Assembly (NCBI GenBank): GCA_001599915.1 | Contig: BCIG01000027.1 | Span: 248,001 to 312,000 of the forward strand | From: Symbiotaphrina buchneri | Taxonomy: Eukaryota > Ascomycota > Symbiotaphrinales > Symbiotaphrinaceae | Length of the DNA: 64,000 bases | Direction: 5' to 3' | Notes under the pieces: generated by a model | What the model was told of the DNA's origin: nothing | Seen by the model: the letters and a program-made list of their open reading frames with translations, nothing else | The model's database searches: none | Program-made: the position numbers and the translations under genes | Shown: piece by piece, positions 5,679 to 45,416 of the stretch | Layout of the letters: each line of letters begins with the position of its first letter | How positions within the stretch are numbered: position 1 is the first letter of the stretch

Positions 5679-6267
5679 GTTTTCCTGTTAGATGCCCGAT
5701 TCCTACGTGATTGACAATACGGCAGATACTCTGCGATGTCGGTGATAGCACTAGCTTAATAGCAACATTTCTGAGTCTCCATCGGTCTAACGCGCATAAT
5801 AAGACTACCAGCTCGTTCGGTTGGATGAGTGGACAGTCATAACATGCAGTCCAAGGTCTGATGACCGAAGATTGAATGTGTTGCTCGCTAAAGAGCAATT
5901 GATGTTCTAGACACAACATTCAACAATATCCAAATAATACATTCAATTTCCCTCCCTGTCTGTCGCCTTGTTCCAGAAAGATCAACTCCCACGGCTTAAC
6001 CAGACATAACATGCAACTATGACGAACATCGTTCCTGTTTCTGACTCAACACCTCCCAAGACCGCCACTCAGCCGGCGTACTGTCTCCCTTTTGCTCTTG
6101 CCTACCGGTGGATTGATTGAAAACATCACATGCCCCAAGGGTCCTTTCTCACTATCAACTTATCAAGCAGTCTATCGGTCATTCTTTAAAATGAGATACT
6201 AGAAGTCTGGAATATGAAATCAATACCTTACATAAACAAACTCACAAATATATAATGTTGAGATCAT
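5679..6267. other. Intergenic, RFT1 promoter side
   Basis: About 590 bp of ordinary base composition with no supported gene. It holds the RFT1 upstream region and ends where the first repeat copy of the AT-rich island starts near 6268. Confidence 0.5.
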
Positions 6268-6495
6268 CGGACTTGTTGGTATGGTTTTTTGGTGTGGTTT
6301 ACCAACCTTAAGGCTTAAACTTACAAAGTTCATGAAAGTGGTAGGATATGGTATGGTGCTCGGATAAGGCATGAATAGTTAAATAACGATCCTGAGGACT
6401 AGGGAATTGCCTTACCAAAAGTTTAACCTAGCAACCAAGCTGTCAAGCAACCACACTTTATGTGGTGCTATCATCCTTTTCTTGCTGGATGCAAG
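6268..6495 (+). repeat. Fragment of the TTGTTGGTATGG repeat family at the island's left edge
   Basis: Begins ACTTGTTGGTATGG and continues with TTGGTGTGGTTTACCAACC, a motif also found at about 20.85 kb, 21.9 kb and 22.7 kb. It directly abuts the larger hAT-like copy. Both ends are poorly defined and no coding potential is visible. Confidence 0.6.
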
Positions 6496-6761
6496 CAGGC
6501 TTGCTGTTGGTATGGTATGTACCACTGAATATGAATATACCACACCGGTGCTAAATGTGGTCTGGTATGAAATTTTGGTACCAGTAGTACTTGGCCCTGA
6601 TACCATATTCTACCGGTGTTAAATATGGTATATACCAGATCACCAGATCAAAAAGATAAGATAAGAAAAAAATTTCTCTTGAAATTACTGTTTTTAGAAA
6701 GGGTATAAAGCTAGCACTTAGTAAGTTCTATGACTATATTTATAATAACAAGCTATATCTA

Positions 6762-7033
6762 ACAAGCCTGGTAACAAAATAGTCTAAACATTTTTAAAAG
6801 GCTTTTCTTATTTAAATTAAAAAGAAAACAAATTAGGTTACAAGTTAAAAAAACTGGAATATAGAATATAATAATGTATAATTAATCCATTAAATAATAA
6901 AGCATAGTAATTAAATAATAAATTTACTATAGCTACTTGGAAAATGATATAAAAGCACCCTAAGTTAGGTATACAGTTGATAATATAGGAAACTCTTGTT
7001 AAAGTATCTAAATTATTTTGTTACCAGGCTTGT
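6762..7033. mobile_element. 272-bp MITE with TA target duplication (Tc1/mariner-like)
   Basis: Ends are perfect inverted repeats starting ACAAGCCTGGTAACAAAAT on the left and mirrored at the right (GTTACCAGGCTTGT). The element is flanked by TA on both sides (6760-6761 and 7034-7035). Deleting it with one TA rebuilds CTATATCTAATTAGGT, which matches CTATACCTAATTGGGT in the intact copy near 22110. The TA duplication and short length point to a Tc1/mariner-type MITE. It has no coding capacity. Confidence 0.75.
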
Positions 7034-7045
7034 TAATTAGGTTTA

Positions 7046-7322
7046 TATTGGAATATAGTGATCATAGTGTCCTAAAAAGCTTAATGATGTTAAGGCTTTG
7101 CAAGGGATGCAGCTTTGTAGGTAGTATAGTTCTGCTATCATGTTAGCTTACCCTGTTTAAGGTAAACAGGCAAAAAGGTGCAAAGCTATATCATCAAAGA
7201 GGGAGTTATACCTGCAAGGTAAGGCTGTACTACCAAGGTGGCTAAAAGTGTAGACATATAACTAAAACATGTTTCCCATCTTAGATAGTAGTAAATCAAG
7301 CTGTATAACATACCTTTTAACA
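7046..7322 (+). repeat. Copia 5' LTR
   Basis: Direct repeat of 19544-19820, with shared landmarks such as CTTACCCTGTTTAAGGTAAA, ACATGTTTCCCA and GATAGTAGTAAATCAAGCTG. It ends in TAACA and is followed by GGTTATAAGCC, which resembles the initiator-tRNA primer site of many copia elements. The two LTRs differ at many sites, nearly all transitions. Confidence 0.85.
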
Positions 7323-10300
7323 GGTTATAAGCCTAGAACATAGTAAATAGATATCTAACATCTTTTACAGTCAAATGTTAAGGTTAACACTAGAAAGAAC
7401 TAGCTATATAATGGTTGATAAAGAATTCAATCAGCTATACTAATCAGCTAAAGATTTTACTTATTACAGGCTTCTGATTGGCTAAACAGTGATTAACAAA
7501 TACAGTAAATCAAAGAACTGGGTAATAGACCTTTTAACTTATTGCTAGATAGATACTAGACCATGGAAAGAAAGTTACAACATGTAATTAGCCCTATAGA
7601 AAAGCAGGCCAACCATATACCATTGTTATTATTACTAACCTTATAAGCTTGTAAAGTTCTTCTAACCATTGTTTATTTAGGTTAAAAAGGTTAAAAATAA
7701 CTGTTTTAGCTTTAGCTTTATCTTTATCTTTAAATCTATAGCTGTAAACAATTTTACACTAGTTAAGCTTTGATAACCTTTATCATTAATATCTACAAGG
7801 TATCCTTTTTAACCTTTATATTAATCTAAAACTAAAAAACTTCCTTTATATCCTTTAAGATATATAAAACCTTTATTATAACAAAAGGAAAGAAAGCTAT
7901 CTAGACATCCTAAAAGAATAGTCTATAAAGACTAAGTTATCATATTGTCCAGGAAATACTTTATCATGTTAAAAAACATCATTAACAACAGTTAAGCTAG
8001 AGTTTAAGCTTTTAACACTTTTAAATTCTTAGGTACTATTTAGACTTAAAACAGAAAGATTTAGATAACCATATATAACAACTATACCTAATCTATACAA
8101 CATTAGCAAAAGATTAACTATTATACCTGATAAGATAATAATTAATAATCTAACCTTAATGGCAGAAAAGAAAGTAATAAATATCAGTATTATAGGTATT
8201 TTCCTAACAACTATGCCAATGTTAAAAACTCTTAATAACTAGAGAAACTGGTATTAATTGATTAAAGATTACCTTATTTTAATTAGCTTTTAGATTAAGT
8301 TGATAAAAAGATATAAAAAGATGTTTTATAATATAACTTAGAAGAATAGATAGCTTAAAACCTGTATATTAATTAAAGATCACTTTAGCTATAATCTAAA
8401 ATCATTAGTTAAAGATATTTAAGATAATATCAAGAATATCTTTAAAAGACTTAAATAAGAATATAAGCCTTAAAGAAATAAAATATTCAATAAATTCTAC
8501 AAATAATAAATCAATCTTAAGCTTAATAACTTTAAGATAATTAACAAATATATTAAGAAGTTTTAAAAAGTTATATAAAAACTAGTTAAGTTTAACATAT
8601 AGATCTTTAAACTGATTTTTGTTTAATTCTACCTTAACAGTTTTAGTTTAATATTTAATATCTTCTATATAATATATAAATAAATTTATAAACTGGTTAA
8701 TAAAGATAGTAATAATAAGAAAACAATAACTTTAGATAATATAACATTTATAACCTTAACTAAAGAAAAAGATATAGCTATATAGAAAAACAATAAACAT
8801 ATAATAGCTATATTTACCAAAGATAACCTTATATTTTAAGAATAAAGATCTAATATAATTTAGACAATAAAACATTATAACTATTATAATCAAGATTATT
8901 ATAATAAAAACAACTGTTAAAACTTATATCTAAAGCTTATTCTAAAGAATAAGAACTATAGAAGGAAACAATAATAACAGGATAATAAAAGGAAAACAGA
9001 AAGTATTATTATAATCCTATTTAAAAAGGTAACCAAGAAAATGTAATTTATAGCTATTATAAAAACCATTAAAACATTGTTAGTATTAAGCTTGTAAGAT
9101 ATATATATTAAATAATAAATACTTATAATACTTTATCTGTTAGTAATTTATGTTTATATCCTTTTAAAAGCTTTTTAACAAGGTAATCAATAATATAAAA
9201 GGTATAACTGCCAGGTTTTTGGCAAAAGGATTGTTATATTATATTGTAAAAATAAAGAAGATAAATAGATTTATATATAATTCTTTAACATTCTTTTTAT
9301 CTTAGACCTTATAGCTAATCTTATATCTAAGATTCAATTAATTGATAGCTATAAAGACATTATATAAGTTTATAAAAAAGAAAGATCTATCTTTTATAAT
9401 AATATTAAATTTATAACAATAAACTATTTTAGCATCTTAATAATCAATATAACTATTATAACCATGATGATAATAGCTATCTAAAAGGATCTTATCTATC
9501 AGCTTTAGCATGATAAAATAAAATACCTTAAAAACTAAAGCTTATAGTAACTATAGAAAATATCAACAGGTATAAACTTAATAAAACCATTAAAACTTAT
9601 CTGTTAAACCTATATCAACAACAAGCTGTATATACAACTGTATAGAATGCTGATTAAGCTAAGATAGTATAAGAACAAGCTTGTATATAATAATATAATA
9701 AAGTCCTTTTAAAAAATATAATAGATTAAAGTATTTTATTATCTTTATAGATAACAAGATTAAAGTATCAAAGGTATACTTTATATAACAGAAGTCTTAA
9801 GTTAAAACTGTATTCTATATATATTATATATAAAAGGAATATAGATATTGTATTATATAATGTTTTTATATAAACTATAAAAGAAAGTATATTAATCAAT
9901 CATTATAAGATTAACTGGTAAAAGCAAGTATTTAGTAAAAGCTATCTATAGTTAAGAATCTATAGATAAACAGGAAAACAGAATGTTTAAACTGTATATT
10001 GTATAAGAAAATATACCTTATGCTAGTTGTATTAAGCCTTGAATAAGAATACTAGATAAAAATAGTTTATTATGTTAACTAGCTATAAAATTAAAGTTTT
10101 AAATGTATACTGTATATAATACCTTTTAAAACAAAGATAGATGTATAATCAGACCTTAACTATGTTTATATCTTTGATTTAATAGCTTATATGTTAAAAC
10201 AAGTTTAATAAAAGCTTAAAGATTAAAGTTTAAAATGCTGACTTTTAAAATATAAAAGAAGTTAAATCTATTGTTTCTTAGGCTTAGATGATTAAGTTTA

Positions 10301-11170
10301 TTAGAATGTTATCATTGTTTTTAATAAAGGCCTTTTATATTAAAGAAAAGACCTAAGCTAATTTAAATCTTATCTTGTTATAAAAAGAAAAGGATTAAAT
10401 ATATTAAGATATAATTTAGGATAACCTGATAATAATAATACAGATTATATAAACTATTTTATCTATAATATTAAAAGCAGTTATTCTGTTTATAATGCAA
10501 GAGATAACCCTTTTTTAAATTAAATACAAAGATAACCTGGAATTTAACTAGAAAGATCCTGTTTAATAAACTATAGTATATAAAGGATAAAGGCTTACAA
10601 TTAACCTAGGTAATTATCAGAAGTTAAAAGATACTTTTAATAAACATCTATAGCTATAGATCCTAGAATTTCTCTTTTTAATAAAAGTTTTTAATCTTAA
10701 ACTATATAAACCAAAGATTTATTAAAAGGTAATCTTAGATATCTATATTTATATAAAGTAAAAGCTTATAATAAACAAGAAAATAGACTTGTTAACAAAG
10801 AATCAAACTTAAAAGTTGATAAAACTGCTAAAAGGCTAAAAAGCCTTTTAAAACAAATAAATATACAAAATAAAATAAAAGCTTAATAATAAAGTAGTTA
10901 AATATAAAACTAAGTAAGTTATACAAGGATTTAAACAGGAGAAAAGCATTAACTATAATAAAACCTTTGTTTTAATTATAAACTAATAAGTTATAAGGCT
11001 TTCTTTATGATTATTGCCTATTATAACTAAAAGATTAAACAGATAGATATAAAAACTGTATTTTTATATAAAAAGATCAATAAGAAAATCCATATATAAT
11101 AATTTATTAATTATATAAATAAATAATATCTAGATAAAGCATATAAACTTATAAAAGCTTTATATAAACT

Positions 11171-11372
11171 TGTAAGGCTGGTATAATAAATTATGTTCTA
11201 AGTGCTTTGGTAGCTTTTATTTAGTTATTTAACCATGTTTTGATCCTAACCTTTAAGGGTCAATAATCAATCTTGACCTCTATCAATAGTTGCTATTATT
11301 AATATATACGTTTTACCTGTGTACAAGCTATTATTAACTATTTTTATGTAATCTAAGCTTATATCCTAATAA
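11171..11372 (+). repeat. Gypsy 5' LTR
   Basis: Direct repeat of 17976-18178 with the same order of landmarks (TTATTTAGTTATTTA, then GGTCA-TAATCA-TCTT, then ATCTAAGCTTATATC-like end). The copies differ at many sites, nearly all transitions, in line with RIP. Confidence 0.82.
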
Positions 11373-14300
11373 TTCTGATTGCTCTAATCCTTTCAAAAGG
11401 ATTGCCTGTTAAAAAGCAACCTATTTGTTTGTAAAGCATCCTTTATATAACTAAAAAGGCCAATAATAGGAAGAAGAAGACCTGTAACCTATAGGAATGT
11501 TTAATCAAACCCTTTTAAAGATTTATCTATCAGTTTAATAGACCTTTTACTGCAAAAAGATAAAACTTCAGGTAATCCAGGTCAAAACAATACTATAGAA
11601 CTGGATCTTATTAGTCTAACAGATGTAATGTCAATAAACTACACCTTTAACAACATTGAAATGTTTGATAAGGAAACTACAGCTGAAAAACATGCTAGAT
11701 TATGACAAATCTTAGAAGAATACTGTTAGCTTAATAAAATTAACTTAATAGAACAAGAACTTACAAAAGAGTTCTTTGTAAATAGTTTACAGGTTAAAAA
11801 CAAAGGACTTGGTTATAAAAGACCTTTATTTATTTTAGTTTTTATTACAAAGTAACAATGATTTTAACCTGTTTTAACTTTGACTTATTTAGTAAAAAAT
11901 CTCTAAGAACTCTATTGGTATAATATAGAATAAAAAGTATAATTTTTAATATATAAGACAATGTTAGATAAATAACATATAAACCTAATAGCTACTTTTT
12001 TATATGATAACATTTTAAATAAATAGAGCTAGATTTAAAATACTTATTAAATAATTACTTAAAATAAATATTACAATTGGTATACTTTGTTAATTAAAGA
12101 TCAGGGAAATTATAAGAACAATATAAGCTTGTTTATTAAGAATGCCTGATAATAACAAGGATAATCTATCTATGAATTCATATAATAGATTAAACTATAT
12201 AAAGAAAATTTATCAAAGGAACAAGACCTAGAATAATATACTTATACAATCTTTAATAGATTTTAACCAGAACTATATTAAAAGGTTATTAAAAACTTAT
12301 ATATAATATATATATAAGAAAAAGTAGTAATAGTTATACAATGTTTAAAAGAGCCATTAACAGATAAAAGAATACCTAGAAATAAATTCAACAAGAACAA
12401 AGCCTATTAAAACAACTATTCTTAGTTTTAATCAAGTTCTATACAAGGGAAATACAGCTTAAATACATATTTTCCCAGTAAAAACAACAAAGATAATAAA
12501 AAGTCAAATGATAAAAAGTTTAAAAGGAAGAAATTATACAACCTTATTAAGTTTTATACTAAGTATAATAAAAAAGAACATAGCCTAAATAAGTATTTTA
12601 ATAATTAAAAGGAATATACTTAGATAAAAGTAAAAAACATAAAGATCAACTTATAACTGTTATAATGAATTTTAGCTATCTTAACCTAAAGAAAATAGAA
12701 AAACAGTATTATATAACACTGTATATCAACATGATAAACAAAAGCATAAAGCCTGTAAAACACAAGGTCTTTTCCTTGACAAATACAAGATTAGAGAAAA
12801 ACTTTATAAACCAATAATAGGTTTTAAAATACAAGTTATATATAAATGATAAACAGGTATAAAACTAAGCTATTAATAGCTATTTAGTTTTTATATACAA
12901 GAGATATAAAATTAAATTTATAGATATTAACTATATAAAAAAACCCAGGTTATAAAACATAGTTTTTAAAATATTAACATTTTAAAATTTAATATAATCC
13001 TTGGGAAGTTATAGTAATTAAAAAAGAATATTCTTCTTTAGCCTTTAACAGATAGTTAAATATTTGGATTAAATGATTAATTTGATAATAAGTTTAATAA
13101 GAACCTAAATACTAAAGATTTCTTTAAAGAAGTTAAACAAAAAGAAAAATAAACCTATATTACATGGTTAACATCAAAGATATATAAAGAAAACAAAGGA
13201 TTAACCTTATTTACAATGATAACAAAGGAACTAATACCTTTAAAAGAGTATAAAAACTATAAAATGTATTCTTAACAAAGAAGGCTGTTATTTTACCAAG
13301 TACTATAGATGTTATACATGTAATTAACATAGAAAAAGGTATAAAGTTACTATATAGACTTATATACTCTTTATTAGAAAAAGAGCTTAAAGTACTATAT
13401 AACTATCTGATTACAAACTTGGAAAAGAAGTAGATTAAACGGTTAAAATCGCCTATAAAAGCTTTTATCCTTTTTACTATAAAGAAAGATAAAAACCTAT
13501 ATCTATATATTGATTACCATATGTTTAATAAGATCATTATTAAAAACAGATACCTTTTACCTTTAATAAGAAAGACTTTAAACTGGTTAGTTAAAACAAA
13601 AATGTTTATTAAACTAGATCTTTATAATATATATCATTGTATTCAAATCAAGCTAGGAAATAAGTAGAAAACTGTGTTTTATATACATTATAACTATTAT
13701 AAGTATATAGTTATATCTTTTAATCTAATCAACATTCTTATAACCTTTTAAGCTTATATTAACAAAGTTTTAAAAAGACTTATTAATATTATCTATGTAA
13801 TCTATTTAGACAATATCCTAATCTTTAGTAAAGATCTAAAAGAATATAAAAAGCATGTAAAATTAATGTTAAACTAGCTATAATCTGTAGAACTTTATAT
13901 AAAGCTTTCTAAGTACAAGTTCTTTATAGATTAGATTAAATTCTTAAGGTTTATCATAGGAACTACAGATGTTATAATAGATCTGCATAAGGTTGTTATC
14001 ATTCAAGAATAAGAATATTCCAAAAGCTATTATAATATCTAAATCTTCTTAGGATTTATTAATTTCTACTAGCGATTTATACATTGTTATTTAGCAATAA
14101 TAGCTTTTATAACTGATCTATTAAAAGGTATATAAAAAGGACAGAAATCTAGCCAGTTCCAATGGCTAAAGGCTGTAAAGAAGGCATTTTACAAGCTATA
14201 AGCATGCTTTTTAAATGTATTAATATTATAGCATTTTAATCTTAACCTAAAGATCAAGATAAAGATAAATGTATTAGGTTTTAGGATAAATACAATACTA

Positions 14301-17300
14301 TTACAATTAATTAACAGGGTATAGCATCTGATTGTATTCTACTTAAAAAAAACAAACTCACATGAAAAAAACTATAAAACCTATAATACTAAGCTATTAA
14401 CAATAATAAAAGCCTTTTATAAATAATGTTATTATCTAAAAGGATTATAGTATCCTATAAAGGTACTATATAACTATAATAACCTAAAGTATTTTATAGA
14501 TATAAAGGTATTAAACAGATATCAAATATAATAAACAGAAAGGTTAACTGTTTTTAATTTTCAAATTATATATAAGAAAAACAAAGTTAATCCAGCTAAT
14601 AAATCATTATAACAACCTGATTACAACAATAAAGAACTAAAAGATAAACTTCTATTCTTAATTATATAATAAAAGCTAAAATAGGAAAGCTTACTATTTG
14701 ATCATTAGCAAAGCATATAAAAAATATCATTAAAGGAATCATTGTTAATAGTAAGCCTTATTATTTTAAACTCAAAAAGAGAACTAATCTAACAAAAGCT
14801 AAATAGATCAATATATCTGTACAAAGTATACAAAGAACAAGATATATACAATATAAACTTTAACAAGAAACAGGCTATAAACCTTGTTTTTATAATAACC
14901 CAATCAGTAATAAGGGAAATCATCAAAGACTAGTTATCCTACAAGGATATCTTAGACTTTTTTACTGTTTATCTTTAAGCTTTATAAGCCAGGGATACCT
15001 GAATAATATAGAAGAAATAAAAAGAGTTCTTTAAAGGTATTATACCAAAGGGCCAATACAAAGGTAAATAGTATAAAGATCTTATAAAGCTTGTACATTA
15101 TAACAACAAGGTTTATATTTTTAATAACCTAGCTATAAGACAAGAGATTTTAAAATTTAACTATGATAACCTATAGATAAAAGATTATTTTAAAGCTAAA
15201 CATACTATAGAAACAATATATCAGTATTATTAATAATTAGGTATAATGCAAAAGGTTATTAAGTATGTAGTAAAATATAATATCTGTCAATATATAAAAG
15301 CTTTAAGATATAAACTATATAAAAAGCTAGTATCTTTATTATAACCTGAAAAACCATGGTAAGATATTATTATAGACTTTATTACAGGGTTTCTATCTGT
15401 ATTATATATAAAGAAAGCATATAATATAATTTTGGTTATAATAGATCAATACTTTAAGATAACTAGATATATTCCTTGCAATAAGGATATAGATGCATTA
15501 AAACTTGTTAAACTCTTATTTACAAAAGTAATCAATAGTTTTAAACCAAGAAAGCTTATTTATCTTTATTTAATAGACTACCTTTTGTAGCTATATAGGT
15601 ACAAGATGTAAACTTAACATAATCTACTATCTATAGATAGATAAATAGATTAAATGGCAAAACCAGATGTTAGAAGTTTACTTAAAATATTATATAAACT
15701 ATAAACAGGATAATTAGATGAAATTACTCTTTAATGCTAAGTTTGTATACAACAATAATATATATGCTACTATAGGAAAAACACCTTTTAAGCTTTGTTA
15801 CTGTTTTATACCTATGTTATACTTAAACTTAAACCTTGAGAATAAGGTTTAAAAAAGAAAAAAAGCCTTAAATACAAGGGAAATAACTAAAAAATTAAAA
15901 CAAACCAGTTCTAGAAGATATAAAAGAAGATCTATGATACTATAGAGAAATTCTATAACAAAAAGCATAAATAAAGGTTTTATGTCTTTAGAGATTTAGT
16001 ATGTTTGATTATATAGTATATAAGCCTGTAAAAACTAAATAAAAAGCTGGTTAAATTCTTTATAAGACCTTTCAAAGTTAAAAAGGCTATAAGTCCTAAT
16101 GTATATAAGCTAAAGCTATTAAAATTGTATTAATAGCTATATACTATCTTCTATATATCCTTGTTTAAACTGTATAAAGTTTAACAAGGAGAAAAACCTT
16201 TAAAGCCAACATTATTAAATAAAGAAAAGGAATAAAAAGTAGAAAAAATGCTGGATAAAGAAGTTAAACATAGTAAACACAGGTTTCTTATTAAATAGGT
16301 AAGATAGATTGTAGTTTATAACTTTTAAAAACCAAAAAAGTTTTTAGAACATGCTAAAGAAAAGATTACAAAGTTCTATAAATGTTATATAGGTATAAAG
16401 CTACAGGACTAAGGATAAGATTATACAGGGAAAAAGGTTATAATCAAAAAACCTTAAAGATAGTTTAAAAGACAAAGAATCTAAGTATAAATAAATATAA
16501 ACCTAAAGATATCTAAATCAAACTATAGAACAGGTAATATACAACTATAAAACAATCTTTATACAGTATTATCCTAAATGTTATATTAGGTTAAAGTAAT
16601 TTTTTTAAAACTAAAAGGTGCATTTAACAGCTTTAACAACTTTATTAAGTTAAATAAGATTATAAAAGATAATTTGTTGTTAATCTTATCTTTTTATACA
16701 ACCTTATCCCAGGACTTTACCTTTATATTATTTTAAAACCATGTTAATATTATATAGAACAGAAGGAAAGTAGATATACTATAAGGTAATAAATATTAAT
16801 TTCCTGGTACAAGACCTGGAGAATTGTAGCTAAAAGAACATTTATAGAATTTAAAACAATAAAAAAGAAGCTATAAGAACTAGATTTCTAAGATATATGT
16901 TAAAAGAAGAATAAAGCTGTTTTTTCAACTGGTACTATAGTATTAACATAGCTTGTCCTTTAAAACAGTATATTAGCTATATTATATATATATATTCTTT
17001 GTTTACCTTGTTGATATTTATATAATAATAATAAAAAAGAGTATACAGGTTAAAGATAACATTGTGTAAAAGGCTAAAACCTATTAGGTTAGCTAGGGTG
17101 ATTATAGGGAAAAAACAAGAGAAACATTTACAATAAGATAATTATGATTGTTTTTAGTATAATAGGTATACTTATGTATTAAGCCTTTTATATAACAATC
17201 CTTAAAATTCTTTAAAGGCTTTTAAATGTTTATTAGATATAATATTGATATTATTCATAGTGTTTCTAGATTACATGTTTCTTAACATAAAATGCTGATT

Positions 17301-17975
17301 TAGGTAGTTTATACAAGTTACATCTAAAGGGATACTGGTTAGTATTAATAAAAAGTACAATAGGTACAGTTATATCAGGTACAGGAGTAGATATAGTTAA
17401 GGTAGTTAAAAAATGCTGGTAAACAGCAAGAAAAAAGCTTATATATTGCAAGAGATATACAAGAAAAAAACAGATAGAAAGCTGTTGTAAAAAGCAAAAA
17501 AGAAATAGTATTTGGCTATAGAAAGGTTATAAGTCTAAAAGGAAATAGGCTGTTTAAATACTATATCTAGGTAATATACATAATCTGTTATTATAAAGCT
17601 ATATATCTATAAAGGATATACTCTGGCTAATTATATCTTACTGTTTAACAATAATAATACCTTATATAAATATCTAATCATATAACCTTATAGTATAAGA
17701 CTCTTTTGTATATATACAGCGTGCTATAAGCATATAAAGTACAAAAACCATATATTATAGTTACTTATACCCTTAATGTAGTATTAAAGAGGTATTTGCC
17801 TAAACTTGATTTAGTTTTGTTTTATTGTTTAGCAAAACTACCTGGCCAGGTCCTAAGTTGCAATATAGACCTTATAGCTATGTGTTCTGTATACAGAAAT
17901 AGCACTATGCAATATATCTTTAAAGATGATATACTATAAGGATCTAAGGATAAATCTCTTAAAAAAGGAAGCAAT

Positions 17976-18178
17976 TATAAGGCTGGTACAATAGATTATG
18001 CCTTAAGTGCTTTAATAGCTCTTATTTAGTTATTTAGCCATGTTCTAATCTTAATCTTTAAAGGTCAGTAATCAGTCTTAACCTTTATCAGTAATTGCTA
18101 TCATTAACATATATACTTTACCTGTATACAAACTGTTACTAGCTATCTTTTTATACAATCTAAACTTACATCTTAACA
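17976..18178 (+). repeat. Gypsy 3' LTR
   Basis: Partner of 11171-11372. The right edge near TAACA is where recognisable copia reverse transcriptase sequence resumes, which fixes the boundary to within a few bases. Confidence 0.82.
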
Positions 18179-18639
18179 AGATTAAAACAGTTATTATAGA
18201 TATAATATAACATATTAACTATATTTTTAAAAAAAGATAAGATTTAAACCTTTATTAACTGATTTTAATATTTTTATTAGTTATAAAATACATATAATAA
18301 TTATTATCTATATTGATAACCATTTAATTATCAGTTTTTCTATATTATATATTTGTTAATTAGAATAAAAACTAAATAAACAGTTTAAAATAACAGATTT
18401 AAAACTTTATTAATACTACCTTAGTATAATAATCATTTATAATAGATAAAATCAAACTATTATCTTTAATCAAGTTGTTTATATATAAAAGATCTTTAAA
18501 GATTTAAATATATAGCATTTTAAGTTAAGTATAATGTTAATAAATCTTAATATATAACTTATATCATCTAATAAGGATTATTAAACAAGTAATCAATTTA
18601 AAGTTATATATTAATCAATAATAAGCTTATTGGTAGGAA

Positions 18640-18870
18640 CTTATGGATTTATGGTGATGGTGTTGATTGAGAAAGCTATCTAGCTAAGGTACAGAGCTTA
18701 TAAGTGAATGCTAACTATAAGCGAGGTCACGAGGTAGCGACTGGCTGACTAGCTAGTAGCAAGCAGTCACTGAGTAGCGCCCATATGCCGTGTCACTTAT
18801 TTATATGTACTATACTAGGTATTTAACTAGATATTATCTTTTTTATCTTAATAGTTAATTAATACTTGTT
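18640..18870. repeat. GC-richer segment of unknown origin inside the copia reverse transcriptase/RNase H region
   Basis: About 230 bp that is visibly richer in G and C than everything around it (for example GCGAGGTCACGAGGTAGCGA). It replaces or interrupts the copia coding region. It contains a TGTTGATTGAG start typical of LTR ends, so a solo LTR or fragment of a further element is possible. No clear target duplication was found. Its low RIP level suggests it arrived later than its host or exists in one copy. Confidence 0.5.
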
Positions 18871-19543
18871 AAGCTCTATATCAGCATATTGGATAGCTGT
18901 ACAATATATCCTATAATACTTTAAAAGAATAATTAACTTTTGCCTTATATTCTAAAAAAAGCTTTAAGGTCTAGTTAGATATACAAACTTTAACTGAAAA
19001 GGTAACCTTGATACCTAATATTTAATAACAGGCTATATGTTTAATGTAAAGAATAAAACAATTAGCTGGTTTTTAAAAAAACAACCTATAGTTACAGTAT
19101 CATCTTATAAGGTAGAATATATAGCATAAATACAGGTTACAAAAGAAGCTATCTAGCTGTAATGTTTATTGATAAAGCTAAATAACAAGAACAGTATATA
19201 GCTTTTAACTATTATACTGTATAATGATAATTAAAAAATGATTGTCCTTATCTAGAACCTTTAGTTCCATGTATATACTAAGTATATTAATATCTAATAT
19301 TACTCTGTACAAGAAAAGGTGTTAAGTAAAAAGATAAACCTATACTATATACCTATAGAGGATCAGGTTGTAGATAGCCTTATTAAACCATTAAGTAAAG
19401 ATAAGTTCTTTAAGTTTCAAAACAGTCTAAGAGTTAAAAAGTACTAGATAACTCCTAGGTATACTCTTTTCAGGTTTTCCTTATGAAGGTTTTCCTTGTT
19501 TTTAACAAGATGCATGATTAACCAACGCTGGATCAAATAAGAG

Positions 19544-19820
19544 TGTTAGAATATAACGATTATAGCATCTTGGAAAGCTTGATGGTGTTAAGGCTCTGTA
19601 AGAAATACGGTTTTATAGGTGGTATGGTTTTGTTATTATGCTGGCTTACCCTGTTTAAGGTAAACAGGCAGGAAGGTATAAAGCCGTACCACCAAAGGGG
19701 AAGCTATACCTGCAAGACAGGGCTATACTACCAAGGTGGCTAGGAATACAGGCATATAGCTAGAACATGTTTCCCACCTCAGATAGTAGTAAATCAAGCT
19801 GTACAGCATACCTTTCAACA
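19544..19820 (+). repeat. Copia 3' LTR
   Basis: Starts TGTTAGAATATAACG and ends CAACA, followed by the target duplication GTTTA. It keeps more C and G than the 5' copy (for example GGCTTACCC and GCCGTACCACC), so the two LTRs have decayed unequally. Confidence 0.85.
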
Positions 19821-20199
19821 GTTTAATGGTACAAGGTAGCTTGTATTGGTGTATATTAGTTTGTATTAGTATGTTTCACTATTTATTAGTGCTTATAAAT
19901 ACAAGGTCAGCTAGACCCAAAGAGAAAGGTTAGTTAGAATATGATTGTATATTGTATAATCTCATATTCTAACTGACCTCTGATAAAGTTTAAAACTCAA
20001 GCTCTTTTAACATCTTCAACATGTTGTTATCATGTAGTTCTTGACCATTGTAAGACTTAAAAGTTAGAAATAGGAAATCTGATTTTAAATTTTCAAAAGG
20101 GTATTATCTAGTAGTAAATTTGTTATATAATAGTGTTTTTATTATTCTAAAAAGGTTGATTATTTACCAAGATAAAATTAAAGTTGTTTACTAGATGCT

Positions 20200-20630
20200 T
20201 GTTAAAATAGTAAATGATAATAAGTGTTACTATCCTGGAAAGCTCTAGAAACCATGGTAAGGTGTAAATATAGAACATGACAAAAAGCCAGAAGCCTATA
20301 AAAATCCATGGAAGCCTATAAAAGTTTCTAGAAGCCTATGGAAATTCCTGGAAGTTTCTAGAACAATCAATATGTTTTGTAATCAGCAGATGACCAAGCA
20401 TTTGTAAACATTACAAAGCATTGGTAATCAACAGATTACAAAGCATTGGTAATCAATAGATTACCAAACATGCTAGAATATTCCAGCTGTAAAAATTGTC
20501 TCCCATTTATGTCTATAAAAGGGACATAAAACCCCTAGGTAGATAGAAAGCAATTCAATCAGGATTCACACCTGTTTCTGCATTTTTACCGTTCCAAGCT
20601 GTATTTCTTTTGCTATTATACCTTTTTACA
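20200..20630 (+). mobile_element. Solo LTR, family L1s, plus orientation
   Basis: A 431-bp LTR starting TGTTAAAATAG and ending CCTTTTTACA. Flanks are ATGCT and GTGCT, a 5-bp target duplication with one transition. Inside are tandem units around TTCTAGAAGCCTATGG and TTTGTAATCAGCAGATT, then a TATAAAAGGG promoter-like box near 20515. Removing it rejoins hAT-like copy A (TTTACTAGATGCT to TAGTAAGCAG). The internal region of this retroelement is not present in the window. Confidence 0.8.
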
Positions 20631-20803
20631 GTGCTTAGTAAGCAGTTTTAGTAATACACAATGAATACTTAGTGGTAGTATTTGTATTTATAACTAGTGG
20701 TATCTGGTACTAGGGGTTTAAACTACTATATACAGTCAAATTTCTTGGCGGACAAGCTTAAAAGGTTAAAATACCATATTATACCATATCAACAACAAGC
20801 TTG

Positions 20804-22734
20804 AATGTAAATATATTGTAGCCTATAGGCTTGTTGTTAGTATGGTATTTACCAGTTGGTGTAGTTTACCAACCTAGTACTAACTACAGGTTGGTGTGCA
20901 CACCTGAATCCTAATATTAGAAAACCAGTTGATTTGGTTTAAGGTTTTTTTCTGGGTTGGTAAATTGGTAAAAACCAAACATAACCAAATTATAACGTGG
21001 GAAAATTGTTTCTCCAGGGTTATTTGATAAAATGATTAAAATCTGACAAGATAAATATAATAGATAAGAGCAAATAAAAGTTAAACCCTTGTTTTATTTT
21101 AATAAATGATTAACCTTTTAAATTCTAATATAACAAAAAATTATTTATATAATTTTTTAAGTATTTTTAAAATCTGATTAAATATTATTTTCTTAACTAT
21201 AATTTTAAATTATTAGATTTAAGTTTATAAAGGTTAAAATATAATATAATAATAACTTATAAATGCTATCATGTGGAATTTGATAACAACTTAATTAAAA
21301 TATAACTATAAATTTTATTCTATAATCATATTTCAAATTTAACTAACATGTCTTTTTAAGTTTTTATATTTAACTTATTTTACAAGTTATATTTATAATA
21401 TTAACAATTAATAAAACATATTAATATAAATTAATATAAGTTAATATCAACTAATATTTATAATAATAATATAGATCAATGTAAATCATTTTGTAGATTA
21501 AATCTAATTAAATATAATGTTATTTTTATAAATAGATAAAACTTACCAAGTTTTAATTCTATATTCTTTCTTTAAAATGATAATTTTAACTAGAAAAACT
21601 TATGATATTATTTGTGTTTAAATGAAAGAAACTAAGAATTAGTAGTTTCTACTAAAAGTTTTTAAGAAATTGAATTAAATTATAAGTTTTAATAATTTAA
21701 TACTAAGAAGTTAAACCCTGAATTAAATAAACCATATTAATAACAAACAAGCTTGTTGTTAGTATGGTATATACTACTAGTTATATTATACCGGTGTTAA
21801 TTATGGTTTGGTACCAATTTTTGGTACCATTAGTACTTAATCATGATAGCATATTTTACCCAGGCTCAGGCTTGCCGTTGGTGTGGTTTGGTTTGGTTTT
21901 TAGCCTCCTCAAACCCAATCACCAAGACCCACGGGTTGGTGTGGTTTTTCAAAAATTTTACCAAAAACCACCGGTTTTTGGTTCGGTTTTTAACCAATAA
22001 CCGAATGACATCATAAGAATTTCCGGCCGGAATTACCGTTTTTGGAAGGGGTATAGAACTAGAGCTCGGTAAGTTCCGTTTGTCTATTTATAATATTACA
22101 CTATACCTAATTGGGTTTAGTTTACAAGGTGGCTTGCATTAGTGTGCATTAGTGTACATTAGTGTACATTAGTGTGTATTAATCTGTTTTACCAATTGTT
22201 AGTGCTTATAAATACAAGGTAAGCTAGGTAAAAAGAGGCAGGTCGGTTAGAATACGATCGTATTTCGTATTTCCCTGAATTCTAACCAAGCTGCTATCCC
22301 AAGTTTTTTTTGTACTTCCAGCTTGCTGCTATCCTATACTTTCTGGCCACTGTAGAACCTAGGGCTAGGGTTACAGGTAGACAATAGTGATATCTCAACT
22401 ATTCCTAATCGGATTTTAAAATTTTAAAAAGGGGATTATTCAGCAATAAATTTGTTATACAACGGTGTTTTTATTATTTTAAAAGGTTGATTATTCATAG
22501 AGATAAAATTAAGGTTTCGTTTAAAATACTTACTAAGCGTTTATCTCATCAGATAGTATCAGAAAAATATTTTTCCTAGTTGTAATCTGGTTTTTATTTG
22601 ATTTTTACCAACCGGAGAAAAAAAATGTTATACCAACCCACACTTAGCACCGGTTTGATAAGGCTTGTCACTGGTATAGTGTTTACCAATCGGTATGGTT
22701 TACCAACAAAGTACATACTGTTAAGAAGACTTGT
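20804..22734 (+). repeat. Degenerate hAT-like copies, mixed subfamilies
   Basis: Starts with GGCTTGTTGTTAGTATGG at 20828, only about 25 bp after copy A ends. The stretch 20980-21740 is featureless AT-rich sequence. At 21747 another CTTGTTGTTAGTATGG head begins; at 21860-22010 there are GGTTTTTGG/CCAAAAACC inverted runs, and 22030-22230 carries the family's GGGTATAGAACTAG and 10-bp ATTAGTGTAC tandem units. A 43-bp hairpin lies at 22245-22287. The tail near 22600-22730 has TTACCAACC motifs. Exact copy limits are uncertain and no coding region is visible. Confidence 0.55.
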
Positions 22735-23212
22735 TGTTGGTATAGTGTAGTATGGTATTTTAACCTTTTAAGCTTGCCTGCCAAGAAACTTGACTATATA
22801 TAGTAGTTCTGACCCCTAGTACCAGATACCACTAGTTATAAATATGAATACTACCACCAGGTATTCATTGTACATTATTTATACTAAGCGTTTAGTAAAC
22901 AACTTTAAGCGAAACCTAATTTTATCTTGGTGAATAATCAACATTTTAATATAAAAACAAGGTTGTATAGCAAATTCTTTGCTGAATAATACCCTTTTTG
23001 AAAATTTAAAATCTGATTAGGAATGGTTGAGATATTATTATTTTCCTGCTATAACCCTAGTTTTAAGTCCTACAGTGGCCAGGAACTATGTGATAACAAC
23101 TGTTGAAGGTGCTGAAAAAGCTTGAGGTCTGAACTTTATCAGAGGTCAGTTAGAATACAAGATTATACAAAATATGATCGTATTCTAACTAACCTACCTC
23201 TTTGGGTTTAGT
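22735..23212 (-). mobile_element. hAT-like element, copy B, right part only
   Basis: Reads, on the minus strand, as the right half of copy A: the hairpin GGTCAGTTAGAATA...TATTCTAACTAACC (23144-23194), the TATCTGGTACTAGGGG box, the AAGCTTAAAAGG box and the terminal CAACAACAAG. Its inner side stops at CTTTGGGTTTAGT, exactly where copy C begins, so copy C seems to have landed in it. No coding region. Confidence 0.6.
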
Positions 23213-24035
23213 CAGGCTTGCTGTTGGTATGGTATAGTATGGTATTTGGACCTTTTAAGCTTGTCCACCAAGAAACTTGAATATGTATGGTAGTTCAGAC
23301 CCCTAGTACCAGATACCACTAGTTATGAATACAATTACTACTGCTAAGTATTCATGTTAAACCTTGACTAAACAAATTTAAGCAAAATCTAATTTTATAT
23401 CAGTGAATAATCAGCCTTTAAAAATAATAAGAACATGGTTGTATAACGAATTCTTTGCTGAGTAATACCCTTTTTGAAAATCCAAAATCCAATTAGGAAT
23501 GGTTGAGATAACATTATTTTCTATATATGATAGCTAAGAAACTATAGGATAGCAACAATCTAAAAGCTCTGAAAGGACTTGGGTCAGTAGTTCGCTGCCA
23601 GCTCGGTTAGAATACAAGATTTTATGAAATACAAACGATTTACAACCAACTTGTCTATTTGGACCTAGCTTACCTTGTATTTATAAGCACTAACAATTAG
23701 TGAAACATACTAATACAAGCTAATACACACTAATACACACTAATACACACTAATACAAGCCACCTTGTAAACTAAACCCAATTAGGTATAGTGTATGTTG
23801 ACAAATCCATAAACGGAACTTACCCAGGTCTAGTTCTATACCCCTTCCAAAAATAGCATTTACAAAAGAAAAAATTTCTTTGATCTGGTGATCTGGTATA
23901 TACCACATTTAGCGCCGGTAGAATATGGTATCATGACTAAGTATCACTGGTACTAAAATTTGATACCAGACCACATTTAGCGTCAGTGTGGTATACTTGT
24001 ATTCGGTGGTATATACCATACCAGCGACAAGCTTG
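23213..24035 (-). mobile_element. hAT-like element, copy C, near full length
   Basis: About 823 bp, starting CAGGCTTGCTGTTGGTATGG and ending with the inverted form CCAGCGACAAGCTTG. This is the least interrupted copy in the window and serves as the reference for the family: terminal inverted repeat, TATCTGGTACTAGGGG box, central hairpin region, TATAAGCAC box, 10-bp ACACACTAAT tandem units (about 23720-23758), GGGGTATAGAACTAG box and the paired TGGTATATACCAC palindromes. Target duplication not clear. No transposase. Confidence 0.65.
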
Positions 24036-24681
24036 ATCTGGTGATCTGGTATATACCACATTTAGTACCGGTAGAATATGATATCATGACTGAGTACCAT
24101 TGGTATGTGAAAAGGTATAATAGCAAAAGGAATATAGCTTGGAGCAGTGTGAATGTAGAAGCAGGTGTGAATGCTGATTAAATTGCTTGTTATCTACCTG
24201 GGGGTTTTATGCCTTTTTTATAGATATGAATAGGAGATAATTTTTACAGCTGGAATGTTCTAGCATGCTTTGTAATGTTTACAAATGCTTGGTAATCTGT
24301 TGATTACAAATGCTTGGTTATCTGCTGATTACCAATGCTTTGTAATGCTTACAAATGCTTGGTCATCTGCTGATTACAAAGCATATTGAATGTTCTAGAA
24401 ACTTCCAGGAATTTCTATAGGCTTCTAGAAACTTCTATGGGCTTCCATGGGTTTCCATGGGCTTTCATGGGCTTCTATGGGTTTCCATGGGTTTCCATGG
24501 ACTTCTGGCTTTTTACCATTCTCTATATTCATGCCCTACTGTGGTTTCTAGAGCTTTCCAGGATAGTAGCGCTTGTTATCGCTTACTATTTTAACATGGT
24601 ACTAAAACTTGGTACCAGATCATATTTAACACATGTAGTATATTTATATTTCATGGTATATACTATATCAACAACAAGCCT
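24036..24681 (-). repeat. hAT-like head fragment, split by a solo LTR
   Basis: Left part 24036-24105 carries ATCTGGTGATCTGGTATATA and the TACCGGTAGAATATG box; the right part 24602-24681 continues with ACTAAAACTTGGTACCAG and the terminal CAACAACAAGCC. The solo LTR 24106-24596 sits between them. Confidence 0.65.
24106..24596 (-). mobile_element. Solo LTR, family L1s, minus orientation
   Basis: A 491-bp LTR, inverted relative to 20200-20630, with perfect 5-bp target duplications TGGTA (24101-24105 and 24597-24601). It shares the order of landmarks with the first copy: CTATTATACC-type end, TTCACAC box, TCTATAAAA box, TAATCTGTTGATTAC repeats, and GGGTTTCCAT/GAAACTTC tandem units. It is 60 bp longer, mainly through more tandem units in 24420-24520. 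Apparent open frames there are only these repeats. Confidence 0.82.
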
Positions 24682-25500
24682 ACATAGTACATACAATAAA
24701 GCTCTTAAAACATATATAAACTATGTTAGATATGTTCTAAACTAGATAGATAACTTTAAAACCCTTAATTATGTAAAATTTTACATGATAACCCTTAATC
24801 ATATAAACTTAGTTGTAAACAATATTCCTTCTATAAACATGTTACATATAGTTTGTCAAACAAGTTATATACTTATAACCATGGTATAACTATAGTATAT
24901 ATTAATTTATATTAATATTATATTACACCAATATTAAATATGGTAATACTAAATCTACCAGATTAAAAAGATAAGATAAGAATTCTTTTCCTGGAATTAT
25001 TATCTTTGATGTGGTATATACAACATTTAAGACCGGTAGAACATGGTATCATGACTAAGTATCACTGGTACCAGATATTGGTACCAGACTGTATTTAGTG
25101 TTGGTATGATATATTTATAACTATTGATAGATACCATACCACTTGTGAACCTGTTGGTAATATATGAATGTATGCTTGATAATACTTGATAGTAGTATTC
25201 GTATTCATATCTACTAATATTTGGTATTAGGGTGACCCTAATAGGGTCTGAAGTACCATATCTATTCAGTTTTGGCCGTTGAGATTAAAATTTCAAAATA
25301 CCATACCACATTCTACCACTTGTAACTTTGTAAGTCTGGTGTTGCATGATAAAATGTACTTGTTGGTAGTGTTCATATCCATATTCATATTCACCTAGTA
25401 TCTGCTACTAGGGCTTGAATTACCATATCCATTCAAGTTTCTTGGCGGTTGAGTTTAAAGGTTGAAATACCACGCCACATTCTACCATTTGTAGGCCTGG
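24682..25500 (+). repeat. Fragments of the hAT-like family at the island's right edge
   Basis: 24682-24995 is AT-rich without recognised parts. 24996-25140 is a minus-strand head fragment (GATACC/GGTACC boxes and ACCATACCAC). 25165-25345 and 25350-25500 are two tandem plus-strand copies of the right-end segment, each with the GGTATTAGGG or TGCTACTAGGG box, the TTGGCCGTTGAG or TTGGCGGTTGAG box and the ATACCA-CCACATTCTACCA end. Gene DNA resumes directly after. Confidence 0.6.
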
Positions 25501-41794: not shown

Positions 41795-42806
41795 GTGATG
41801 GCCAATGTGTTTTTTTTCTTCAGGCTTGCATGATTGGCGAAGCATAGCGTAGGAGTTTGGTTACTCGGGAACTCCGGCCAGGAGCTTCATGGTTCCCGCG
41901 GGTTCTGGGGAAACTGGGAGTTTGTTCTTCCGGGCCTGATTGATTATTGGAGTTGCAGGTGTTTACAGCGGCATCAGCTCCCTTACCTACTTAGGTAGTT
42001 GCCTCGCATCTTGAGGTACGGAATAGGTCATCGTCGGCATTCTTGATCTTTTCTTGTCCGTGCAAAGAGCAGTTGATAAAGAGAAGAGAAATGAAAACAG
42101 AAACACCTCTTTCCAAGCTCCAAGGATGATGACAACGTGCATTGTGCAAAAGTAAAGCAAGATTATCGGCGCCTATCCTCTATCATCGTGATTCGAATCG
42201 TTTGATCATAATTGTTACAGCCCCTTTGTTTTCCTGTTTACCTTACGACACCGGGGCCTACCTACTCGTATGGAGGTATCATTGTTCTTATGGCAAGGTG
42301 GAAAGGTACCTTGGCTAAGGTACCTTGTGGGAAGTACGAATAGGTCTTAGCTGACCGGTTAGTCCAGAATCTTCCTCCAGTTGTACACCGTGTACTAGTG
42401 TAGCTTTGTACGAAGTATTCGTAACTTTGAGCCATCTCCACCAATAAGATTCACGATCAGCGTCCAGTGCCCAATCCCCACCCAACCGCTAAATCCCTTC
42501 GCTCGTCCGCTCTTCTTCTCGTCCTCTTCCCTCCTCTTCACCACCCAACCTGCCTTATCACACAGTACAACACTCACAACTCAACGTTATTCGGACTCCG
42601 TACTTCCTTTGCTATCGATCCGTCATTCTCCACACTCGAACCTCATTATCCGCGGCCGTACTCATCAAGCACTCAACTTAATCGCTCCGGGATCATCCAT
42701 CCACTCCGCCTTTCGCTAATCAGGCTTATTCGGGTCATTTCCCGCGCGACTTTCACCGCTTCGATATCGAATCCTCCAAAGACCGCAGCTGTGGCATCTC
42801 TGCTCA
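41795..42806. other. Intergenic, MPE1 to antizyme
   Basis: About 1 kb with no independent gene. Near 42300-42330 there are two AAGGTACCTTG-type palindromes. From 42467 an open frame of 119 codons runs to 42826, overlapping the antizyme start by 20 bases in another frame; it is Ser/Leu/Pro-rich without a known domain and could be a long upstream frame in the leader. Confidence 0.45.
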
Positions 42807-43734
42807 ATGGCGAAACTATCCGGTAGTAGTAGTAGGATGAGTAGTAGGAATCAACAACTCGAAGCCGCTGCTCGCCCCAACATCCTCGCCAGCTGCTATG
42901 TCGTCCGATCTGACACCGGGGCCCTGAAGGGTTTCCACTACTCCACTACCGGGGCCGGGGGTAAGTCTAATCAATCAACGGCGCCTGAACGCGCCCCTTC
43001 TCCATCGTCTGATGACGCTAACGGTGTCCTATAGGGGCCCAGTGGCGTTCCTGAGGTCAGCTCGGGAATACCTTCACCCCCGCAGAGTCCCCCCCTCGCC
43101 GCCTACACCGTCGGGCAAGAGCTCTCCTATGCCGGGAAGAGCCGGGCGCGTAGAGGGGGGGCTGCGTACACCATCCGGGAAGAATGTGAGAGATTCTTCT
43201 GCGATATACTGAAGGCAGCTTTCTTTGGTTTAGAAGGAAAGCCGCTGAGGAAGGCATCGCTAGCGATGGGTGCGCATCATCACTCTCCGCCGGAAGAGTT
43301 TGACGACTCGACCGAAGGAGAAGTGCGCGATTGGATCGAGCTTTGGGATTATGTCGGGGACCTGAGGTTCAGAGGGTTCGTCGCCGGTGAGGACGACCAG
43401 AAGACGCTGTTCGTTTTCTTCGATAGATCTGTCCTGGGGAAGGACCTCAAGCAAGGGTATGTCCCTGTCTCCCATTGGAAGCAGATCTCCAATGACGTCC
43501 ACTTGTCTAACTGAGAATCCTAGGCTCATGGCGCTGATCGAGCTTGCCTCGCACCCGGCCTTGGATTGCTGCCGGCTGGTAGCATGCCTCGACCGGACCT
43601 TCCCCTCGGAAGATCTTAAAGGTCTGATGAAAGATCTGGGCTGGATCGGCTTTGAACTTACCACCTTGGAACCTTGGGGAAGCCCTAAAGATGTCGTCAG
43701 TCCGAGGTGGCTCTTTTTGAGCATGGACGTGTAG
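42807..43734 (+). CDS. OAZ1: Ornithine decarboxylase antizyme, decoded by +1 ribosomal frameshift
   Basis: Protein that binds ornithine decarboxylase, sends it to the proteasome and limits polyamine uptake. Exons 42807-42960, 43035-43456 and 43524-43734. The first frame encodes about 57 residues and ends, after the first intron, in Trp-Arg-Ser-stop (TGG CGT TCC TGA, 43043-43054). Skipping the single T at 43052 opens the second frame, which continues to 43734; the total is 786 bases, exactly 262 codons (261 residues). The second frame has the antizyme fold: WIELWDYVGDLRFRGFV, TLFVFFDRS, GLMALIELA, CCRLVACLDRT and DLGWIGFELTTLEPW, ending WLFLSMDV. The site type TGG-NNN-TCC-TGA matches the animal site TGG-TGC-TCC-TGA. 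Polyamine-stimulated shifting is known for the family and inferred here. A conventional caller would miss or split this gene. Confidence 0.9.
43043..43054 (+). promoter_or_regulatory. Programmed +1 frameshift site of antizyme
   Basis: TGG CGT TCC TGA lies 8 bases into exon 2. The first frame, entering with one base from exon 1, reads GGG GCC CAG TGG CGT TCC TGA. Shifting +1 at TCC gives TCC-(T)-GAG-GTC-AGC and stays open. The TCC-TGA pair is the classic antizyme shift site; the slow stop codon and polyamines promote the shift. The following 25 bases (GGTCAGCTCGGGAATACC and on) could form RNA structure, which I did not model. Confidence 0.88.
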
Positions 43735-44648
43735 TCTTTCGGTGCCTCGCGTCTTGCGAGACGCTACATGGCACCATTTTCGGATCCGTACATACCGCAT
43801 ATCTGTTTGTCTCTTGGTGATGGTGGTCCGCCTTGTTTTGAGTTGGTCCCTTTCTTTGACTATTGGTCTGGCAGCCTCGTCCACTGTGTATGGCGGGGGA
43901 AAACCTTCTTGTTGACGCAAGTTCTGTTGTTCGCTGGATTGGCCTGCAAATAGTCATTTGGATGGTCCTATAGGTTCATTGGACCTGGGTCGTGGGCCCA
44001 TTTGTACGTAGGGAAGAAGGTGTCCTGTATCCAGAATCGGCGCAACTGTAATAATTTCAAGTCCATCGTGCCGATGTATATTATCTAGCCTTCGGGCAGA
44101 TATGTGCGCTTCCAACAGGGCATTTGCATTAGCTCCTTCAGTCTTGTATAACCCTACACGAACCTCGCTGGGGCGAGGCTGTACTTCACGGGTGTCTTCA
44201 TAGATGCCTAGGTACCTAGACAACAGTAGCTTCGTACGAATGATGGGTTTTATTGGCTGATAATAAGACTGCTAGCCTCCGTCTTGTCGCCGTCCCGTCT
44301 CCCCGCCGGTCAGCCGACAGCCGGAAGAGAGGGAGCGAGCATCTAGATGTCCACTAGATGCCCAAAGCTCCCCAGCAAGACAACACACCACTCGGCACAA
44401 CCCTGTGATTACCAACTCTCACTCCGTCTTGCCCTCTTACTTCGTTTTCCGTTCCTATCTCACTATCACCCTGACTCCCATCCTTTCTTCTGGAACGCCT
44501 TGCGTTCACCAGATATCCTCTCTAAGTCTACTTTGTCCGAGCTTCCCGCGGTACAAAGGGCGGGGCACTTCGCCCCTGCTATTCTACAGCGAAGTCTTCT
44601 TCTCTTCACACGCGACAGGGCCCGGAAAGAGGCAAACAATCGGAGAAG
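43735..44648. other. Intergenic, antizyme to yippee-like gene
   Basis: About 900 bp. The part before 44649 is pyrimidine-rich and open in several frames (44347-45015 and others), but these lack domains and overlap the real gene. A CCTAGGTACCTAG palindrome lies near 44209. Confidence 0.45.
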
Positions 44649-45416
44649 ATGGTCTTCAACGGTCGCCAGAAATCGCCCCTGCTCTTTCCAATCTACCTTC
44701 TTCCGCCCGTTCCCTTTCGTCGCAGGAGCTCGTCTGCCCAATCCGCCAGTGAAGCGTCTACCACCTCTCCTTCATCACCCCCCACATCACCCTCATACTT
44801 GTCTTCACATACCTCTCGCATTCGTTGCTCACGATGTGCCGCCGACCTCTGCTTCACCGACCAAATCATCAGCAAGGGTTTCACTGGTCGCCATGGGCGT
44901 GCCTATCTTGTGTCCCCAGAGCCCAACACATCTGCTGCCTTGCGTTTACCGAATGTCAACACATCTTCAACTATTCCGAACACCCACACCCACAAAGCTG
45001 TGCCCCGTCAGCTAGTGACCGGTGCGCATACAGTTAGCGATGTCAGCTGTTCCTTGTGCGGCAGCGTCCTGGGCTGGAAATACATCTCCGCCGAGGAGGA
45101 GAGTCAGCGGTACAAAGTGGGCAAGTACATCCTGGAGACGAGAAGGATCAGTACCAGCTCTTGCTGGGAACGCGACGAGGAATGTGATAGCCCTCCGGTA
45201 CACGAATTACCTTCAACATACTCAAGGACTGGAGCCCTCCGATGGGCCGAAGACGCGGTTGAATTCGACAGTCAAGATGAAGATGAGTGCGAAGATCTCT
45301 TTGCTGGTATATGGAGTCCTGCGCTCGCCACCAAGCGGCGGCGTGGCCGGCGGTTCTCTCGAGGGACTGCCTCAAGTTACACCTCTCACAGGGTGAGCGG
45401 CGAGGACAGCATCTAG
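44649..45416 (+). CDS. Yippee-like zinc-binding protein
   Basis: Single exon, 255 residues. The central part is a yippee domain, a zinc fold related to Mis18 and cereblon: two CxxC pairs (CSRCAADLCF and CSLCGSVLGW), KGFTGRHGRAYLV, VTGAHTVSDVSC, and GWKYISAEEESQRYKVGKYI. The N-terminus is Arg/Ser-rich and the C-terminus adds about 90 residues of acidic then Arg-rich sequence (DSQDEDECEDLFAG, KRRRGRRFSRG), longer than animal yippee proteins but usual in fungi. Yeast Moh1 is a distant relative. The molecular role is not known. The start at 44649 gives MVFNGRQKSPLLFPIYLLP, a plausible conserved N-terminus. Confidence 0.85.
   Translation: MVFNGRQKSPLLFPIYLLPPVPFRRRSSSAQSASEASTTSPSSPPTSPSYLSSHTSRIRCSRCAADLCFTDQIISKGFTGRHGRAYLVSPEPNTSAALRLPNVNTSSTIPNTHTHKAVPRQLVTGAHTVSDVSCSLCGSVLGWKYISAEEESQRYKVGKYILETRRISTSSCWERDEECDSPPVHELPSTYSRTGALRWAEDAVEFDSQDEDECEDLFAGIWSPALATKRRRGRRFSRGTASSYTSHRVSGEDSI

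Follow-up and report, generated by a model that had tools for sequence, protein, structure and literature searches.

A predicted antizyme gene in a filamentous ascomycete, with a putative UCC_UGA +1 frameshift site brought into context by removal of an intron

The analyzed window, a stretch of 64,000 nt (positions 248001-312000 of contig C27) from a genome of 23.4 Mb, carries a predicted three-exon antizyme gene, the features of which are collected in Table 1. Within the segment 42807-49639, an ORF with a Yippee/Mis18 domain (44526-45413) lies beyond the antizyme gene, as does an ORF for a TRP-type channel on the opposite strand. The locus tags of the antizyme and the channel are 2 apart in Pleopsidium and Sarea, 7 in Cirrosporium, 8 in Coniosporium, and 18 in Trizodia, which suggests an old shared gene order; no such proximity was observed in Aulographum, where the two genes are on contigs that differ in length. 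Elsewhere in the window, an AT-rich block of about 19 kb (6251-25500) contains no open frame of 150 codons. The GC content is 0.21-0.30 over positions 8001-24000 versus 0.52 over 28001-64000, with corresponding TpA/ApT ratios of 1.24-1.37 versus 0.69 and (CpA+TpG)/(ApC+GpT) ratios of 0.72-0.88 versus 1.27. The high TpA/ApT ratio of the block fits repeat-induced point mutation.

Table 1. Predicted features of the antizyme locus, in window coordinates
Feature	Coordinates	Length	Strand	Basis or remarks
Exon 1 (start codon and the larger part of ORF1, the first antizyme frame)	42807-42960	154 nt	+	sequence
Putative intron 1, phase 1	42961-43034	74 nt	+	GTAAGT...CTATAG; branch-like CTAAC at 43018
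Exon 2 (remainder of ORF1, putative shift site, beginning of ORF2)	43035-43456	422 nt	+	sequence
Module A-like 5' element G UGG CGU	43042-43048		+	sequence compared with excerpts of PMC4505036
Putative +1 frameshift site TCC_TGA, T43052 predicted to be skipped	43049-43054		+	sequence; UCC_UGA according to excerpts of PMC5009743
Initial segment of ORF2 (residues 58-191 plus two bases of codon 192)	43053-43456		+	first part of the PF02100 match
Putative intron 2	43457-43523	67 nt	+	GTATGT...CTAG; CTAAC at 43507
Exon 3 (remainder of ORF2 with the C-terminal portion of the antizyme domain)	43524-43734	211 nt	+	stop TAG at 43732-43734

The first frame starts with the ATG at 42807 and is preceded by an in-frame stop codon (TAA at 42717). 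Since the nearest upstream ATG in any of the frames is at 42290, the start of ORF1 would be the first AUG of the transcript, provided that the leader does not exceed about 500 nt. Both GT-AG introns, which we infer from sequence signals and homology, have good donors and TAG acceptors. In intron 1, the CTAAC motif is located 12 nt before the end of the acceptor, and the intron itself ends 17 nt before the base that would be skipped. After splicing, the first frame comprises 57 codons, is translated as MAKLSGSSSRMSSRNQQLEAAARPNILASCYVVRSDTGALKGFHYSTTGAGGAQWRS, and ends in TGG CGT TCC TGA, with the TGA at 43052-43054; the context of the shift site is thus assembled only once intron 1 is removed. 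Skipping of T43052 opens a frame that begins with GAG, is translated from EVSSGIPSPPQSPPLAAY onward, and remains open to the terminal TAG, and the two frames united via the skipped base encode a protein of 261 residues. A search of both strands of the window found a single occurrence of TGGNNNTCCTGA, and GTGGCGTTCCTGAGGT occurs once in the whole genome (reversed control, 0). The preliminary description of the locus had given the coordinates of intron 1, the TGG CGT TCC TGA ending, and the extent of the second frame to 43734 correctly to the base, and it had noted the second intron. Its exon sum of 786 after subtraction of one base is likewise accurate, whereas the argument it drew from divisibility by three against a chance arrangement is circular, since the start, the stop, and the junctions were chosen to keep the frame open.

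A chance arrangement is instead ruled out by homology, as judged from the match to the antizyme profile and from relatives that span both frames. The preliminary description had proposed that the second frame be compared with the antizyme family, and in a profile search the 261-residue protein matches PF02100 (ODC_AZ) at E 3.4e-42, with a score of 143.4 bits where the curated cut-off is 24.2. The match covers residues 149-261 and profile positions 2-114 of 114, is encoded entirely by the second frame, and includes no internal stop. A profile search of the 23.4 Mb genome gave two PF02100 matches, both of them exons of the gene at 42807-43734, which is the single antizyme found there, and no match was obtained in the named control genomes (0/14). 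For ORF1 alone, no Pfam match was found. Nevertheless, its peptide is conserved outside the Pfam domain: residues A28, S29, and Y31 are each retained in at least 90% of an alignment of 32 sequences, composed of the window antizyme and 31 sequences drawn from the 120 listed relatives.

Of the 900 candidates in the protein search with the antizyme, 285 reached E <= 0.001, and PF02100 was detected in each of the best 120 of them (120/120). The top named organisms among the matches listed were Vezdaea, Xylographa, and Geoglossum (49-51% identity, with 92-100% of the query covered), all belonging to Pezizomycotina; the remaining named relatives among the matches listed are presumably Pezizomycotina as well. 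The window antizyme itself was absent among the matches listed (best identity 57%), and the same was observed for its neighbour gene (best 67%). A literature search returned, among the matches listed, no paper title on an antizyme of Pezizomycotina. We are highly confident that the locus is the ornithine decarboxylase (ODC) antizyme gene of a filamentous ascomycete, assigned to Pezizomycotina by its relatives, the product of which would be made by a +1 shift at UCC_UGA and would act on ODC, with the shift, the polyamine control, and the action on ODC attributed by family membership. The reading of the preliminary description, an antizyme with a +1 shift site whose context is split by intron 1, is borne out by the gene structure, the PF02100 match, and the relatives.

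The animal antizyme site reads UGG UGC UCC UGA, and we take the Trp-X-Ser-stop form in the window to equal it. In the window, the bases up to the stop are G UGG CGU UCC UGA, and UCC_UGA is described as the shift site of most antizymes in the excerpts of PMC5009743. Immediately upstream, the sequence resembles module A, an element of six to seven nucleotides that abuts the shift site (excerpts of PMC4505036). In Coprinopsis, the first base of module A is a G at the third position of codon -4 and codon -2 is CGU, and the G and CGU of the window agree with both. A UGG codon is also named for module A in the same text, the wording of which ('5' adjacent codon') is ambiguous; on one reading, in which the named UGG is codon -3, the UGG of the window would complete the seven nucleotides of module A. 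The antizyme of Coprinopsis cinerea and other Agaricomycetes is thus similar to the window gene in its +1 shift at UGA, which in the window gene is predicted, and in the G and CGU of module A, whereas Agaricomycetes have UUU as the shift codon in place of UCC; a nascent-peptide signal and a 3' double stem-loop are further described for the Agaricomycete gene (excerpts of PMC4505036). A 3' RNA stimulator was sought in the window gene by folding 120 nt from the shift site, and the resulting fold was not exceptional in comparison with shuffled sequences (z -1.45; 17 of 200 shuffles were as good). Over positions 43044-43072, the predicted fold includes a hairpin of nine pairs, formed by GUUCCUGAG and CUCGGGAAU, which encloses the shift site. 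Given the PF02100 match, the Pezizomycotina relatives, the UCC_UGA site, and the module A-like bases, the gene is regarded as that of a canonical antizyme, which would be expected to be made via programmed +1 frameshifting.

The proteins of some relatives bear a probable trace of the shift site. When the second frame is read upstream through the site, TGG-NNN-NCC-TGA-G appears as x-G-x-P-E, and we therefore searched the relatives for xGx?[ED]V directly before the proline block of ORF2. This imprint was found in 45 of the 120 listed relatives (best 120 of 285), a count from a biased set, as solely models extended upstream can display it. Among the others, 25/120 are without the anchor, and 50/120 have the anchor without the pattern, which in most cases is explained by a model join or start located past the shift site. 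The open position of the imprint is occupied by Pro in 42 cases and by Phe in three (n=45), as NCC-TGA or NTT-TGA would give. Over all 120 proteins, the region after residue 160 contains the pattern nine times, twice with Pro. Since third bases are invisible in proteins, these residues are an imprint of the site and not proof of TCC. A narrower pattern had given 43/120, all with Pro; it was blind to models reading GGGFEV and was superseded by the open pattern. The sequence GGGFEV is found at the shift in P0037, P0042, and P0113 (Myriangium, Aureobasidium, and one metagenome protein), which suggests UUU_UGA instead of UCC_UGA in some lineages.

In comparison with other Pezizomycotina antizymes at the protein level, the conserved ORF1 peptide, the PSPPxSPPLA start of ORF2, and the antizyme domain are the same; ordinary sequence divergence is the sole difference seen, and the listed models of these relatives are devoid of the shift junction. 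The preliminary description had expected gene callers to split such a gene or to drop it. In fact, 93 of the 120 listed relatives unite the ORF1 motif [FLMIVY]H[YF][CS][ST] and the domain in one model (97/120 contain this motif or AS[CA]Y), so that the prediction of splitting or loss is partly wrong, but none of the 120 matched the patterns devised for the true junction. The pattern W.[SFP][EDG]V over the whole protein and the pattern W.[SFPT][EDG][VA] over the first 130 residues were each found in 0/120, although both would miss a true junction lacking Trp at codon -3. The looser W..[ED] within 120 residues was present in two of the 120, in both cases as WNGE located elsewhere. The joins differ from model to model, e.g., ...TTGAGG-AECPPLA, ...TTGAAG-LPSPP, or intron-like runs before GPSGIPEV, and these differences are most simply explained by software that removes the shift site with an invented or extended intron. 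With the true junction pattern in none of the 120 listed models, public fungal antizyme proteins are probably often wrong at this point. A search for standalone ORF1 proteins gave one candidate with one match, P0241 (72 aa), which leaves the antizyme sequence where the window gene has intron 1. Instead of reaching the shift stop, the protein appears to continue into intronic sequence, and this point of departure suggests a shared intron 1.

The varying joins also bear on the possibility that the full protein is obtained by alternative splicing, another intron joining ORF1 to ORF2 without any shift. The two frames would be joined, with no conserved residue lost, by an intron of 78 nt that runs from GTCTAA at 42965 to the CAG at 43042, and the deposited models of relatives join the frames as if by such introns. 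However, the donor at 42965 is weak and located four bases after the strong donor GTAAGT, which together with CTATAG and the CTAAC motif forms a far better intron than any of the alternatives. Joining GTAAGT to the acceptors at 43119, 43155, or 43182 also keeps the frame open, but all three are AAG or GAG and all remove conserved residues of ORF2. On paper, the frames could also be joined by numerous further single introns, most of which have GC or weak GT donors. Moreover, if the full protein arose by splicing, UCC_UGA would be kept for nothing, and joins that vary between relatives are expected of software forcing a frame. Taken together, we consider this explanation very unlikely.

Retention of intron 1 is less probable still, its likelihood being close to nil. 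The length of the intron (74 nt, equal to 2 modulo 3) puts ORF1 in the frame of ORF2, and the unspliced reading proceeds from ORF1 through the intron into GPSGVPEVSSGIPSPP in that frame; however, the last three bases of the intron are TAG. As the acceptor itself forms this in-frame stop, the product of retention would end after 75 residues, and retention as a source of the full protein is ruled out, barring readthrough of the TAG. A decayed gene or a sequencing error, i.e., a one-base insertion in a single frame, is extremely improbable, since nothing beyond the existence of two frames points to it, whereas the site is the standard shift motif of the family, relatives carry its imprint, both frames are conserved, and the domain is free of internal stops.

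Under the preferred reading, a +1 shift at UCC_UGA in the spliced transcript, the closeness of the end of intron 1 to the skipped base and the length of the intron modulo three raise the idea that splicing and frameshifting might be coupled. In some conditions, other splice sites (e.g., 42965 to 43042) would yield an antizyme escaping polyamine control, and retention would yield a dead-end peptide of 75 residues. We regard such coupling as very unlikely.

The presumed target of the antizyme is encoded in the same genome. One PF02784 match was found for the ODC gene (E 2.1e-77, profile search), with human ODC as the best solved match of its product (E 1e-99), and spermidine-synthase-type matches are also present. 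With mammalian antizyme 1 (1zo0, 4zgy, 4zgz, and 5bwa), the likeness consists in shift-based synthesis, which for the window gene is predicted, whereas sequence similarity is low and several ODC-contact residues differ. A search of solved structures with the window antizyme as a single sequence gave no match up to E 1; a profile of the 32 fungal-type sequences reaches the four mammalian structures weakly (E 0.075-0.27), with the equivalent of K153 kept. In human AZ1, K153 is an ODC contact according to excerpts of PMC4595762, and the AZ1 numbering used here was obtained by fitting the letters named in that source to the printed chain. By this numbering, the equivalents of AZ1 K153 and K178 are K190 and R216, each conserved in all 32 aligned sequences, and the equivalent of E165 is H202. 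On the ODC side, four of the eight residues named for AZ1 interface I in the human enzyme are the same (P113, D134, L166, and F170), whereas Q116, Q119, V137, and R144 are replaced by T, Y, D, and Q, respectively; this comparison covers interface I, with positions assigned from the match to the 461-residue chain. A change of human ODC residue 137 to Asp is among those reported to weaken binding (excerpts of PMC4595762). As judged from these substitutions, the fungal antizyme-ODC interface has probably drifted on both sides.

In the antizyme family, ribosomes mostly stop at the UGA, polyamines raise the +1 shift, and the protein binds monomers of ODC for delivery to the proteasome (excerpts of PMC4505036 and PMC5009743). 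By analogy, after removal of both introns, ribosomes translating the window gene would read 57 codons and meet UCC_UGA, where the majority of them would be expected to terminate. A fraction, expected to grow with the polyamine level, would skip the U of the UGA and continue in the +1 frame, yielding the 261-residue antizyme. The latter would bind ODC monomers and target them to the proteasome, which would complete a negative feedback loop. Being of a known kind, the gene offers little surprise, and it represents a clean ascomycete example of this feedback gene, with a 5' frameshift element that resembles that of basidiomycetes though the shift codon differs.
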